Shown: positions 32,435 to 38,473 of the stretch, one piece after another
Layout: the number at the start of each line of letters is the position of its first letter
How positions within the stretch are numbered: position 1 is the stretch's first letter
Source of the DNA: Methanolinea sp.
Lineage (GTDB): Archaea > Halobacteriota > Methanomicrobia > Methanomicrobiales > Methanospirillaceae
Assembly: GCA_030019395.1 (NCBI GenBank)
Contig: JASEES010000047.1
Span: forward strand, 62,001 to 126,000
Reading direction: 5' to 3'
DNA: 64,000 bases
Translations under genes and position numbers: made by a program
Notes under the pieces: model-generated
What the model was told of the DNA's origin: nothing
What the model saw: the letters and a program-made list of their open reading frames with translations, nothing else
The model's database searches: none

Positions 32435-32935
32435 TCAAAGGAGAGCCGAGGTGACCCCGATGACCCCGGACTGGATGATGACAGCGGTGGCAACGATGAC
32501 TCCCGCCATCTCCAGGGCGACTGCCACGTTGCCCTTCCTGATCTCCTCGAACTCCGAGACACCCTTGGTCAGCCTGTCGAGGATCGAGAGTGCGAGGTAA
32601 ATGGCACCCACCGCAAGGACGATGCCGAGGATGAGCTGGAGTATCGCCACGCCGATTGCGACGATCCCGTCCATCGAGAAGAGACCGACAGAGAGGGCCT
32701 TTGAGACTCCGAGCGATATCCCTGATACCCCCGACTGGACGACGAGTGCAATGGCAAAGAAGACAGCCGCGACGATGATTCCAACCGCAGCGTTACCTTT
32801 TGCAAGTTCCTTCTCCTCCTCGATACCCTTCGTGATCCGTGAGAGCACGGAAAATCCGATGTAGAGCGCGATAACTGCCAGGATGATGGCAATTACCAGC
32901 TGAATAATACCGACGACAGCATTTGCAAGCAACAT
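32435..32935 (-). CDS. DUF350 membrane protein with two tandem halves
   Basis: A 166-residue protein with four transmembrane helices arranged as two similar halves: VLSRITKGIEEEKELAKGNAA in the first corresponds to ILDRLTKGVSEFEEIRKGNVA in the second, each between helices, each followed by the QSGV segment. This is the DUF350 repeat. The function is unknown; the family is often near glutathionylspermidine synthase-like genes in bacteria, none of which is here. A GGTGA ribosome site precedes ATG 32935 and AAATTTATCG about 55 bp upstream is the likely TATA box. Confidence 0.85.
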   Translation of the reverse strand: MLLANAVVGIIQLVIAIILAVIALYIGFSVLSRITKGIEEEKELAKGNAAVGIIVAAVFFAIALVVQSGVSGISLGVSKALSVGLFSMDGIVAIGVAILQLILGIVLAVGAIYLALSILDRLTKGVSEFEEIRKGNVAVALEMAGVIVATAVIIQSGVIGVTSALL

Positions 32936-33440: not shown

Positions 33441-36400
33441 ATGAGTTCGAGTCAAAGAAACACAGTGCTATTTGTTGCCGTCATTGTTCTCCTTGCACTG
33501 GCAGTATCACCGGCAACAGCCGGGACGTCCCTGTCAGTGGATGTATCCGGGCTGCCCCTCGTTTTCATCCAGAACGAAGGACAGGTGAGCGATGACGTGC
33601 TCTACCACGCGAATGCACCAGCACACAGCATCCTCTTCACGAAGGATGCAGTGGTATTCACCGTGGGAAGCGGGGGCATTTCCCCGGCATCAGTCGAAAT
33701 CGCGCTCGAGGGGCATTCCCCCGGCGTGGTGGTAACAGGTGAAGACAAGCTTGGAGGAAAAGCAAACTTCTTCATCGGGAACGATCCCTCAAAATGGGTC
33801 CGGGACGTCCCGACGTTTGGAAGGGTGCGGTACAGCAATATCCTCCCCGGAGTCGATATCGTCTATTCCGGAACGCAGGGAGTCCTCAAGCGCGATATCG
33901 TCCTTTCCCCGGGAGCCGATCCCTCGGCTCTCCTCTTCCGGTATTCAGGCCAGGATGACCTTGCCCTCGATGCCGACGGAAACCTCCTCGTGAAGTCGTC
34001 GGCAGGCACGATCAGGGAGGCAGCCCCGGTCTGTTACCAGGAGCGGAACGGAGAAAGGGTGCCGGTCTCCTGCAGGTACGTCCTCTCCGGCAACGGGCTC
34101 GTCGGTTTTGACACCGGTGCGTACGATCCTGCCCTCCCGCTCGTCATTGACCCCTACCTTGATTTTTCCACGTACCTCGGGGGGAGCATGGATGACCGGG
34201 GGTATGCCGTAGCCGTCGATTCCTTGGGAGGAACATATGTGACGGGGAGCACGCAGTCAATCGACTTCCCGTATCCGTCCTGGAAGGCACAGTACCAGGA
34301 AGATCCCGGTGGCGGGCTGGACGCGTTTGTCACAAAGTTCGAGCCTGATGGTCTTTCCATGAACTACTCGACGTACCTTGGGGGGTATTATGACGATATC
34401 GGGCACGGAATTGCCGTGAACGACTCGGGTTACGCGTTTGTCACGGGAGAGACGATCTCGCCTGATTTCCCCGTCCTCAAAGCCTTCCAGGAGAATATCA
34501 GTTACAGCGGGACCTGTTGTTCCTCTGCGGATGCGTTTATCACCGTCCTGACACCCGAGGGTTACGACCTCGAGTTCTCCTCGTACCTGGGCGGGAACAT
34601 GACCGATATCGGCCAGGCCATTGCGCTCACCAGTTCAGGGGTGGCGGTCATTGCCGGTTCCACGGCATCGGACAACTTCCCGACGACAACGGGAGCGTAT
34701 GATACAACATTGAACGGTACTTGGGACGCATTCGTTACAGGAATATCCTATGATGGATCAGCTTCATCCATCGCAAATTCGACATACCTCGGCGGTGGGA
34801 ACATCGACAGGGCCAATGGAATCGCATTGGGCGCAAACGGGGACATTTTCGTAACCGGGTTGACGAAATCTTCGGATTTCCCCACCCTAAACGCGTACCG
34901 TAGCTCGCTTTCCGGAGGCCAGGATGCCTTCGTGACACATTTTGATCCCACGGCAGGCTCCATTATATCTTCCACGTACCTGGGGGGCACTGACGAGGAA
35001 TCCGGGAATGGTATTGCCGTGGATAATACCGGGGCAATGTACGTGACGGGGTTCACACGGTCAATGGATTTCATCAAGATAACCTCCCCCCCACCGCACT
35101 ATCAGTTACAGCTGAAAGGTCTCCAGGACGCGTTCCTGACAAAACTGAACCCGGAAGGGCGCACGGTGAACTTTTCCACGTACCTGGGCGGACAGCTGGT
35201 CGAGGACGGCAGGGGGGTTGCTGTCGATAACATGGGATCAATATTCGTGACCGGCTACACGGATTCGCTCGATTTCCCGGTGAAGAATGCCGTCCAGTCA
35301 GCCCTTAATTCCTACACGTACGACGCATTTGTGACCCGGTTCTACCCGAACGGGACAGCGCTCATGTACTCGACGTACCTGGGTGGCCGGCTCGATGACA
35401 GGGCCATGGGAATAGCACTCTTAGACTCCAATGTAACGATCGTCGGATATACGGAGTCAGCAAACTTCCCGGTAAAGAATGCCGTCCAGCCGACACTTGC
35501 AGGGATTAGCGACGCATTCGTCGCCCGGATTGCCTCCGTTCCGCCGGTAGCAAACTTCACGGCGGAAGCCAACGGCGTGGAAAACTATACCCTCATCAGG
35601 GGCCTGCCCCCGCTGCTCGTCAACTTTACCGATCTCTCGACCGGTGAACCGACGGCCTGGTCATGGCTCTTTGGCGATGGCAACACGTCGACCCTCCAGC
35701 ACCCCAGCCATATCTACTATACCGGTAACTGGACGGTCAACCTGACGGTGAGCAACCTCGACGGGAGCAACTCGACCGGAAAATACGAATACATCCAGGT
35801 CGGAGACCCGCTCATCGTGAATTTCTCTGCAAACGTCTCGGGAGTGGAGTGCACATTCTGCCAGGGACAGGTTCCCTTCGACGTGAACTTCACGGACCTT
35901 ACGAACGATGCACCGGTCGCATGGAACTGGAGTTTCGGTGACGGGAACTTCAGCACGGACCAGTATACCAACTGGACGTACCATATCCCCGGGCTCTACG
36001 ATGTCAGACTGACCGCAACCAACGAGTATGGTTCCAACAGTACAACGAAGTGGGGGCTCGTGGAGGCAGGGGACGTTCCGACCGCCAATTTCACTGCCAA
36101 TGTCACGTTCGGTCTGGCACCCCTTGCCGTGCAGTTCACTGACCTCTCGACCGCCATTCCTGCAGTAACCTCCTGGAACTGGACGTTTGGTGACGGTTCG
36201 CCCAACGGAACTGCCAGTAACCCCGTCCACGTGTTCACGGCGATGGGGAACTACACGGTCAACCTCACGGTGAGGAACCTCTACGGCAACGACACGATGT
36301 CCCGGTTCGAGTACATCCGGGTCGGCGAGATCCCGGTAGCGGATTTCACGGCTGATCCCGTGATCGGCGTCGAGCCCCTCAATGTTACCTTCACCGACTT

Positions 36401-37223
36401 CTCTACGGGATACCCGGCCTGGTGGTTGTGGACATTTGGCGACGGTCAGACTGAGAACAGGACGAACAACCTCACGTTCAACCACACGTACCTCCACGCC
36501 GGTAACTACACAGTCTCCCTGACGGCCGGAAACGAGTTCGGAACGAACACGATGACCCGCAGCAGGTACATATCCGTCGCAGGAAATGCAACGACAGTGA
36601 ACCTGACGTTCGTCCCGTCCTCTGCGATCATTCCGACCAATTCCACGACGGCAATGAAACTCGTCCTCGAGTACGCGGAGAGGGGGCTTTCCGGGTACAA
36701 CATCACGATCTTCTTCACGAATGCCTCCGCGGCAGACATGGTGACGTTCCGTCCACCCTCGTGGCTGAACGAGAGTTTCGTTATTACCAGCACGGTCCCG
36801 GCGCCGTCGGTCTGGATAAAGGCGTCAGACATCGATGACGTCATCAGGCCCGGTGCAACGAACGTCGAGCTCGCGCTCTTCAACAGCACGGGAAAAACAC
36901 CGATGACAACCACCCTCGACGTCACCGTCTCGCAGATCGATACCGACACGGGGGACCCGGTCTATACGTGGGTCAACAAGGCACCCGTCCAGGTTGTTGT
37001 CCTCCTCCCCCTGCCAGGCTATACGAACCCGCCAACCGACCCGTTCCATGACGGGGTATACTGGGATGTCAACGGGAACGGAAGGATAGACTTCGATGAC
37101 GTGGTCCAGTACTTCCTCTACCTCGAGTGGATCCAGGAGAACGAGCCCGTGAGCCTGTTTGACTACAACAACAACGGTCGTATCGATTTCGACGACCTCT
37201 ACATCCTCTTTACGATGGTGTAA
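33441..37223 (+). CDS. Large secreted protein: SBBP propeller, PKD, cohesin-like and dockerin-like modules
   Basis: A 1260-residue secreted protein. Residues 1-27 are a Sec signal. About 38-230 is the globular domain that usually precedes SBBP repeats. Residues 235-695 contain seven STYLGG repeats, enough for one seven-bladed beta-propeller. Four PKD domains follow (about 697-1047; each with the WxFGDG-type core). Residues about 1050-1185 resemble the cohesin-like domain of the next gene (GLSGY, PSW, ASD, PGAT, DxDxGDP). The end (1209-1260) has two calcium-loop repeats, DVNGNGRIDFDD and DYNNNGRIDFDD, the dockerin pattern. No C-terminal membrane anchor is seen, so attachment may be through the dockerin. 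It is rich in Asn-X-Ser/Thr, so glycosylation is likely. Confidence 0.9.
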   Translation: MSSSQRNTVLFVAVIVLLALAVSPATAGTSLSVDVSGLPLVFIQNEGQVSDDVLYHANAPAHSILFTKDAVVFTVGSGGISPASVEIALEGHSPGVVVTGEDKLGGKANFFIGNDPSKWVRDVPTFGRVRYSNILPGVDIVYSGTQGVLKRDIVLSPGADPSALLFRYSGQDDLALDADGNLLVKSSAGTIREAAPVCYQERNGERVPVSCRYVLSGNGLVGFDTGAYDPALPLVIDPYLDFSTYLGGSMDDRGYAVAVDSLGGTYVTGSTQSIDFPYPSWKAQYQEDPGGGLDAFVTKFEPDGLSMNYSTYLGGYYDDIGHGIAVNDSGYAFVTGETISPDFPVLKAFQENISYSGTCCSSADAFITVLTPEGYDLEFSSYLGGNMTDIGQAIALTSSGVAVIAGSTASDNFPTTTGAYDTTLNGTWDAFVTGISYDGSASSIANSTYLGGGNIDRANGIALGANGDIFVTGLTKSSDFPTLNAYRSSLSGGQDAFVTHFDPTAGSIISSTYLGGTDEESGNGIAVDNTGAMYVTGFTRSMDFIKITSPPPHYQLQLKGLQDAFLTKLNPEGRTVNFSTYLGGQLVEDGRGVAVDNMGSIFVTGYTDSLDFPVKNAVQSALNSYTYDAFVTRFYPNGTALMYSTYLGGRLDDRAMGIALLDSNVTIVGYTESANFPVKNAVQPTLAGISDAFVARIASVPPVANFTAEANGVENYTLIRGLPPLLVNFTDLSTGEPTAWSWLFGDGNTSTLQHPSHIYYTGNWTVNLTVSNLDGSNSTGKYEYIQVGDPLIVNFSANVSGVECTFCQGQVPFDVNFTDLTNDAPVAWNWSFGDGNFSTDQYTNWTYHIPGLYDVRLTATNEYGSNSTTKWGLVEAGDVPTANFTANVTFGLAPLAVQFTDLSTAIPAVTSWNWTFGDGSPNGTASNPVHVFTAMGNYTVNLTVRNLYGNDTMSRFEYIRVGEIPVADFTADPVIGVEPLNVTFTDFSTGYPAWWLWTFGDGQTENRTNNLTFNHTYLHAGNYTVSLTAGNEFGTNTMTRSRYISVAGNATTVNLTFVPSSAIIPTNSTTAMKLVLEYAERGLSGYNITIFFTNASAADMVTFRPPSWLNESFVITSTVPAPSVWIKASDIDDVIRPGATNVELALFNSTGKTPMTTTLDVTVSQIDTDTGDPVYTWVNKAPVQVVVLLPLPGYTNPPTDPFHDGVYWDVNGNGRIDFDDVVQYFLYLEWIQENEPVSLFDYNNNGRIDFDDLYILFTMV

Positions 37224-37237
37224 GGAGGGGGATTCAC

Positions 37238-38473
37238 ATGTATTTCACCAAGTGGAAAGAAACGGTCATCCTGTGCGCATGCATCTGCCTGCTCGCTGTT
37301 CCGGCACTGGCAACGACCGTCACAGTCAGTCCCGCCACGATACCTGACGCAGGCTCGAGTGTCGATGTGACAATCGTGGCCGACAGCCTCCCGACAGGGC
37401 TCTCGGGTTACATCATGACTGCATCAGTTGCAGACCCGTCCGTTGCAGAGATAACGGCGGTTACATTCCCGTCATGGGCGTCGATGAAGCTGAACTCGGC
37501 TGTGCCTGCATCGGAAGTCTCCTTGCGGGCAAGTGATCTCTCCCTCGGCGTTTCACCGGGGGCCACGGGCGTCACTCTCGTGACCCTGACGGTGAAGGGG
37601 AAGATCGCGGGAGCGACAACCCTCGGTCTCACTGTGAGGCAGATGGACCCTGACGGAGCTGGCGACCCGATCAATCCGACAGTCATCCCGGGCACCATCT
37701 CTGTCGGAGGCGTCGTTCCGACAGCGACAGTAACACCCACGACGACCCCGACGGCAACCCCGACGGCAACACCAACAGCGACAGTAACACCCACGGCGAC
37801 CCCGACGGCAACACCAACAGCGACAGTAACACCCACGGCGACCCCGACGGCAACACCGACAGCGACAGTAACACCCACGGCGACCCCGACTGCAACCCCG
37901 ACACAACCCGGGCAGGAACCCGGATACATCACGGTCTTCTCCTATCCGCTCGGGGGGTCGGTTGCCCTCGACGGGATCGTTATAGGGACAACGCCGCTCC
38001 AGGATTACGCGGTTGAACCGGGGACGCACACCCTCACGGCTGCCTATCCGGGGTACAGGGAATACACAACGACGGTGACGGTCAGCCCCGGCGAACACAA
38101 GCGGGTCCCGCTGATTATTTTCATGAAGGGGATACCGACGATGTTCCCGACGATGTTCCCGACGACATCCGTGACCACGAATATCCCAACTGCAGTCCCG
38201 ACAGCGACGCTGACCCCAACGGCAACCGTCACAGGGAGCACAGGGACGGGGGCACTCAAGATCAGTACCGTTCCGCGGGGAGCAACCATCTACATCGATG
38301 ACGTGGTAAAAGGTATCAGCCCGGCCACGATCTCCGATATACCTGCCGGAAACCACGAACTGAAGGTAGCCAAACAGAACTACAAGACGACCGTGAAAAC
38401 GGTGACCGTACAGGCAGGAAAGACGATACAAGTGCCCCTCATCGTGCTCAGTCCGACAAGGTCCGGTTTCTGA
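37238..38473 (+). CDS. Secreted cohesin-like / PEGA-domain protein
   Basis: A 411-residue secreted protein starting 14 bp after the previous gene. Residues 1-25 are a signal peptide; about 26-158 form a cohesin-like domain whose blocks GLSGY, FPSW, RASD, PGATGV and QMDPDGAGDP match the domain in the upstream protein. Residues about 161-227 are a Thr/Pro/Ala repeat; 228-295 and 337-405 are two PEGA domains (YPLGGSVALDG and VPRGATIYIDD starts), common in surface proteins. No membrane anchor is evident. It may be the binding partner of the dockerin next door. Confidence 0.88.
   Translation: MYFTKWKETVILCACICLLAVPALATTVTVSPATIPDAGSSVDVTIVADSLPTGLSGYIMTASVADPSVAEITAVTFPSWASMKLNSAVPASEVSLRASDLSLGVSPGATGVTLVTLTVKGKIAGATTLGLTVRQMDPDGAGDPINPTVIPGTISVGGVVPTATVTPTTTPTATPTATPTATVTPTATPTATPTATVTPTATPTATPTATVTPTATPTATPTQPGQEPGYITVFSYPLGGSVALDGIVIGTTPLQDYAVEPGTHTLTAAYPGYREYTTTVTVSPGEHKRVPLIIFMKGIPTMFPTMFPTTSVTTNIPTAVPTATLTPTATVTGSTGTGALKISTVPRGATIYIDDVVKGISPATISDIPAGNHELKVAKQNYKTTVKTVTVQAGKTIQVPLIVLSPTRSGF
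37721..37905 (+). repeat. 42-bp coding minisatellite (TATVTPTATPTATP units)
   Basis: Starts of the unit at 37721, 37775, 37817 and 37859 are spaced 54, 42 and 42 bp. Each 42-bp copy encodes 14 residues of Thr, Pro, Ala and Val. The later copies are nearly identical, so copy number may vary between strains. The encoded linker would be extended and O-glycosylated. Confidence 0.9.

Follow-up and report, generated by a model that had tools for sequence, protein, structure and literature searches.

The window, a 64,000-nucleotide stretch of Methanolinea sp. DNA, contains two genes with operon-like spacing that encode secreted proteins, referred to here as P1 and P2 (Table 1). P1 opens with a signal peptide and a DUF7948 domain, followed by a seven-bladed SBBP propeller and four PKD domains, and closes with a cohesin-like domain and a dockerin. 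In P2, the signal peptide leads into a cohesin-like domain, which a Thr/Pro linker joins to a pair of PEGA domains. The count of seven blades comes from the S(T/S)YLGG motif, compared with five SBBP stretches recognised by Pfam, which detected no enzyme domain in P1. The calcium loops of P1 read DVNGNGRIDFDD at residues 1209–1220 and DYNNNGRIDFDD at residues 1241–1252. P2 has neither a transmembrane helix nor a sorting signal. Motif, Pfam matches and loop sequences bear out the layout given in an earlier, sequence-only reading of this DNA, which had listed the seven blades, the four PKD domains and the terminal pair of calcium loops in P1, along with a partner gene 14 bp downstream whose product has a Thr/Pro linker followed by two PEGA domains. 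Divergently oriented to P1 is a gene for a 166-aa all-membrane protein with two similar halves, DUF350-like by eye (32435–32935, minus strand), a gene that keeps to the lysS–P1 interval at most orthologous loci.

Table 1 Features of the P1–P2 locus (positions in the window; residues in the protein).
Feature	Position	Strand	Basis
P1, 1260 aa, very large secreted SBBP/PKD protein bearing a cohesin-like domain and a dockerin tail	33441..37223	+	orthologues in 17 loci
P1 DUF7948 domain, residues 42–238	33564..34154	+	Pfam PF25778, E 4.4e-59
P1 SBBP propeller, seven blades, residues 242 to about 699	34164..35537	+	Pfam SBBP E 2.8e-27, 5 stretches; S(T/S)YLGG at seven blade starts
P1 four PKD domains, residues 700–1046	35538..36578	+	Pfam PKD_4, 4 stretches, E 1.2e-51
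P1 cohesin-fold domain, residues 1047–1189, immediately N-terminal to dockerin	36579..37007	+	AF2 model and Foldseek
P1 dockerin, residues 1200–1258	37038..37214	+	Dockerin_1 score; conserved loop positions
P1 dockerin calcium-loop repeats (two)	37065–37100 and 37161–37196	+	sequence
Intergenic gap P1–P2, 14 bp, with Shine-Dalgarno-like GGAGGGG	37224..37237	+	sequence
P2, 411 aa, secreted cohesin-PEGA partner	37238..38473	+	directly downstream of P1 orthologue in 17/17 loci
P2 cohesin domain, residues 25–156, just after signal peptide	37310..37705	+	AF2 model and Foldseek
P2 Thr/Pro linker	37718..37912	+	sequence
P2 two PEGA domains, starting at residues 229 and 339	37922..38443	+	Pfam PEGA E 3.8e-30, 2 stretches

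All 17 orthologous loci, drawn from five genera, retain the complete pair: a secreted cohesin gene stands directly after the P1 orthologue, mostly in the context lysS / P1 / P2 / hypF. P1 orthologues in these loci are 40–92% identical, and complete P2 orthologues have 2–11 PEGA domains each and zero membrane helices. We considered special constraint on the C-terminal P1/P2 region, given its high identity to the MAG G029, and rejected it: identity is likewise 98–99% in the genes flanking it on that side, so that recent common ancestry or recombination is enough to account for the similarity. The cohesins that make up a pair share 23–37% identity in the window's clade, where those of the P1 type form a branch of their own; for this clade, a test led us to reject gene conversion between the cohesins of P1 and P2. 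Paired cohesins in ANME-2, Archaeoglobaceae and Methanophagales are 68–85% identical, and 77–94% identical in their middle third (L131, L132 and L143). This looks like gene conversion in L131:5181-9720 and L132:5862-9556, a pattern found in ANME/Archaeoglobi.

The cohesin-like domains of P1 and P2 share only about 37% identity. The blocks that the sequence-only reading had seen in both (GLSGY, PSW, ASD, PGAT and D..GDP) are genuine, the two domains aligning with a score of 173, compared with a mean of 36.7 (sd 6.4) and a maximum of 64 over 2000 shuffles. Against Pfam Cohesin (PF00963), the P2 domain scored 15.4 bits (E 0.022), under the cut-off of 24.1, and the P1 domain gave no match; just 3 of 36 members of their divergent family reached E<1, and a Pfam Cohesin scan of the window's own genome returned zero matches. 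Single-sequence searches with the cohesin-like domain, PDB sequences included, produced no credible match, and a profile of the domain had zero matches among PDB sequences. Because the Pfam scores of both domains lie below threshold, the label "cohesin-like" required evidence from fold and profile comparison.

AlphaFold models built from family alignments reached a pLDDT of 93.7 and a pTM of 0.83 for P1 residues 1047–1260, spanning cohesin and dockerin, and a pLDDT of 96.7 and a pTM of 0.90 for the P2 cohesin. In Foldseek searches of the PDB, the best 38 matches of the P1 model were all cohesins (top E 3.5e-9), as were nearly all of the best 50 matches listed for the P2 cohesin (E about 2e-8), which include 2XDH from A. 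fulgidus (TM 0.76) and 4UMS (TM 0.80). Profile–profile comparison by hhalign aligned the divergent family with Pfam-passing archaeal cohesins over 121 columns, the whole domain (P 94.7%, E 6.2e-8), compared with P 0.1% for a PKD control. Solved cohesins being the best PDB matches of both models, each domain has the predicted fold that its "cohesin-like" label had implied. With Pfam and HMMER alone, the searches came close to giving no cohesin similarity, an outcome that the sequence-only reading had set against itself and that structure and profile–profile comparison overturned. Together, the fold matches and the hhalign result place the P1 and P2 domains in the cohesin superfamily, of which, judged by models and profiles, they are a divergent branch missed by Pfam.

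The tail of P1 is, by its sequence, a dockerin, and was correctly called one from the outset: taken by itself, the C-terminal segment reaches 25.2 bits with Pfam Dockerin_1, passing the cut-off of 22.9, and is the sole Dockerin_1 match in its own genome. It follows the type I dockerin pattern of two F-hand calcium loops (D1, N/D3, N/D5, D12) with helices after them, and these helices are present in the AF2 model. In the dockerin alignment, loop positions 1, 3 and 12 are conserved, and D10, N12, D21, D42 and D53 are invariant.

Inventories of related genomes show how few such modules Methanolinea carries. The near-complete congeners G030 (99%) and G027 (100%) each carry a single dockerin alongside three cohesins; the third cohesin protein, besides P1 and P2, measures about 700 aa and combines cohesin, PEGA and PKD domains. 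The window's own genome gives the same count, one dockerin and three cohesin genes, the third of which (L054:14876-15706) ends at a contig edge. This third cohesin-PEGA-PKD protein is conserved through the genus and has no adjoining dockerin gene (L055, L057, L059, L061, L063-L065, L067-L069 and L071). A profile of the divergent family finds five cohesins in G073, which we take to be Methanospirillum hungatei JF-1, where, at L097 (G073:C1:2772000-2782000), a gene for an SBBP-PKD-cohesin-dockerin protein precedes two that encode cohesin-PKD-PEGA proteins. The other extreme is seen in genus g15 (G088-G094; loci L078-L085) and in G072 (L052), with 20–45 dockerin proteins per genome versus zero to six divergent-family cohesins.

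Cohesins and dockerins also tend to be found in the same genomes: across 108 genomes of the family, both are present in 61, one alone in 4 and 6, and neither in 37 (p 4e-18), and the 39 genomes of one genus give corresponding cohesin/dockerin counts of 6/1/3/29 (p 1.7e-4), p-values that are descriptive, as the genomes are non-independent (phylogenetic confounding) and tandem cohesin-dockerin proteins score for both. In a sample of 296 genomes of the phylum, the divergent family occurs in 78 and supplies cohesins to 48 that have no Pfam Cohesin match, making it the only cohesin type in 48 of the 155 cohesin-positive genomes sampled. It is likewise present in 25 of the 49 genomes of this sample with a Pfam dockerin but without a Pfam cohesin.

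The order of the two genes recurs beyond the orthologous locus. Among 69 dockerin-less cohesin genes outside it, 28 have a same-strand dockerin gene immediately upstream, a fraction that is not unbiased, as the 60 further stretches were picked from cohesin-profile matches, a few with dockerin matches in view. None of the 69 has a dockerin gene downstream only, and 41, the third Methanolinea cohesin protein included, have no adjacent dockerin gene. Dockerins lie at the extreme C-terminus, with a tail of 2–6 residues in the set examined, and partner cohesins are mostly N-terminal, after the signal peptide. Several dockerin genes precede one cohesin gene in L087, L088 and L112, where many dockerins without a cohesin in their own chain nonetheless adjoin a cohesin gene. 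A scan of named genomes located the same pair in Archaeoglobaceae (L131), ANME-2 (L132) and Methanophagales (L143); it is also present in haloarchaea (L146, L147, L150, L155, L157, L177, L180, L182 and L183) and Thermoproteaceae (L151 and L164). The cargo differs among pairs, including PhoX, subtilase, glycoside-hydrolase-like and LVIVD propeller proteins. A C-terminal membrane helix with a short charged tail terminates the partner in haloarchaea, Thermoproteaceae L151 and paralogous Methanomicrobiales modules (L056, L058, L066, L077 and L113), suggesting that the cohesin protein acts as an envelope receptor and the dockerin protein as its client.

Other architectures combine the two modules in a single chain. 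A Methanoperedenaceae S-layer protein (PF07752; L130:3267-8615) has a C-terminal cohesin and dockerin, which suggests docking to or within the S-layer, and a 472-aa protein of Bipolaricaulota, which are bacterial, is arranged cohesin-dockerin-cohesin-dockerin (L163:7182-8597 and L168:4809-6224).

We consider it likely that P1 and P2 form a non-cellulosomal cohesin–dockerin surface-attachment pair, in which the P1 dockerin docks on the P2 cohesin and P1 is retained at the surface. Both proteins would be exported via their N-terminal signal peptides, P1 presenting its seven-bladed SBBP propeller and PKD stalk without a membrane anchor of its own. The C-terminal dockerin of P1 would then dock, in a presumably calcium-dependent manner, on the N-terminal cohesin of P2, its probable partner. 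P2 may be held in the cell envelope by its PEGA domains, a task that appears to fall to the C-terminal membrane helix in related modules; to our knowledge, PEGA domains have no proven envelope-binding role. The cohesin of P1 itself, seemingly a diverged copy, could pack against the dockerin or take a further P1 dockerin. The low identity of P1 and P2 cohesins in the clade and the separate branch of the P1 type favour P2 as the receptor, and this divergence favours a separate role, packing or chain link, for the cohesin in P1. The sequence-only reading had let the dockerin bind the cohesin of its own protein or of the neighbour; of the two, pairing with a neighbouring cohesin fits the conserved gene order and the Archaeoglobus precedent and is the more probable. 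For the lattice, adhesion or cell–cell contact role proposed at the same time, we found no evidence in any of the three forms, and the simplest account would be that a large propeller/PKD protein is kept at the surface.

It is unlikely that P1 instead assembles into chains, its dockerins docking on the cohesins of other P1 molecules to build fibres head to tail, P2 forming their end at the cell surface. P1 does have both socket and plug, and the close similarity of paired cohesins in ANME-2, Archaeoglobaceae and Methanophagales looks as if both bound the same dockerin; however, in the window's clade, where the P1 type branches separately at about 23–37% identity, shared specificity is not evident, and an adjoining cohesin and dockerin in one chain may pack together instead. 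Such packing is central to a second, quite improbable alternative, in which the P1 cohesin and dockerin are one folded C-terminal unit (compare the X-module/dockerin dyads of cellulosomes) and P2 is an independent PEGA surface protein with little role in it. The AF2 scores of this 214-residue tandem predict a defined mutual placement of the two modules, but at many independent loci the dockerin gene has a P2-type cohesin gene after it, with the dockerin gene invariably first, and this holds also where the dockerins have no in-chain cohesin. A last reading sees nothing more than ordinary Ig-like repeats and EF-hand-like calcium loops, drawn from a common surface-protein toolkit and not binding one another; it would fit the lack of significant cohesin matches in Pfam and PDB sequence searches, but is very improbable given a structure search that is cohesin-specific among beta-sandwiches and a profile comparison, gene order and co-occurrence that all favour a cohesin–dockerin system.

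Beyond the docking of P1 on P2, we regard as evenly balanced the broader proposal that an unrecognised cohesin family underlies general surface docking in archaea (methanogens, haloarchaea, ANME, Archaeoglobi and Thermoproteota), with secreted, dockerin-tailed cargo and a dedicated, anchored cohesin receptor encoded as an ordered gene pair. If this is true, many "orphan" archaeal dockerins would be explained, and Methanolinea would be a reduced case with a single client, P1, and a PEGA-based receptor. The ordered gene pair predicts binding partners, making the role of dockerins in non-cellulolytic archaea directly testable; convenient cases are the small Methanolinea set and its likely counterpart in M. 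hungatei JF-1. A new orthogonal plug–socket pair may also serve protein engineering. Archaeal genomes have been reported to be dockerin-rich with few or no cohesins, as in M. hungatei, with 9 dockerins and 1 cohesin (PMC5244752), compared with the five cohesins that the divergent-family profile gives in G073.

Compared with known systems, P1 and P2 share with the clostridial cellulosome the cohesin fold and an EF-like, two-repeat dockerin at the client C-terminus, but they come without a multi-cohesin scaffoldin, cellulases or a CBM and with one cohesin per partner, and clostridial cellulosome cohesins have about 20% identity or less to the P1/P2 family. Classical type I dockerins carry Ser/Thr at loop positions 10–11, unlike the P1-type loops, which have F-D or F-N. 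A cellulosome was rejected as an identity for the pair, there being no scaffoldin, no cellulase and no enzyme domain in P1, in a genome with the small dockerin and cohesin set described above.

ANME surveys, which relied on InterPro-type domain models, describe archaeal surface proteins with both cohesin and dockerin and no assigned function (PMC9012536, PMC5244752); the divergent family is likewise found in ANME (L132 and L143). The open-licence literature contains dockerin/cohesin surveys of ANME and other archaea, and in it we found nothing on the divergent family in Methanomicrobiales or haloarchaea.

In G207, a propeller-like protein with cohesin and dockerin precedes a secreted cohesin protein of 192 aa that has a membrane helix (L194), a gene pair that we take to be A. 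fulgidus AF2375/AF2376. As in P1/P2, a cohesin-dockerin gene with a propeller or propeller-like domain stands directly before a secreted cohesin gene, and the P2 cohesin has the same fold as the Archaeoglobus structure 2XDH. AF2376 ends in a transmembrane helix after its cohesin, whereas P2 continues into a Thr/Pro linker and PEGA domains; the Methanolinea cohesins are at most 18% identical to 2XDH in fold alignments and sub-threshold in Pfam, and the SBBP/PKD cargo is unlike that of AF2375/AF2376. The Archaeoglobus precedent invoked by the sequence-only reading is thus apt, both for this adjacent-gene plan and for the binding of A. fulgidus Coh76 and Doc75, a complex-forming pair that has been applied for surface attachment (PMC9705933). 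To call the locus an undescribed system, as that reading did, is too strong, the plan being that of AF2375/AF2376. The pair type is already known; what is new is the divergent cohesin family, its breadth, the PEGA-bearing type of partner and the ordered-pair rule.
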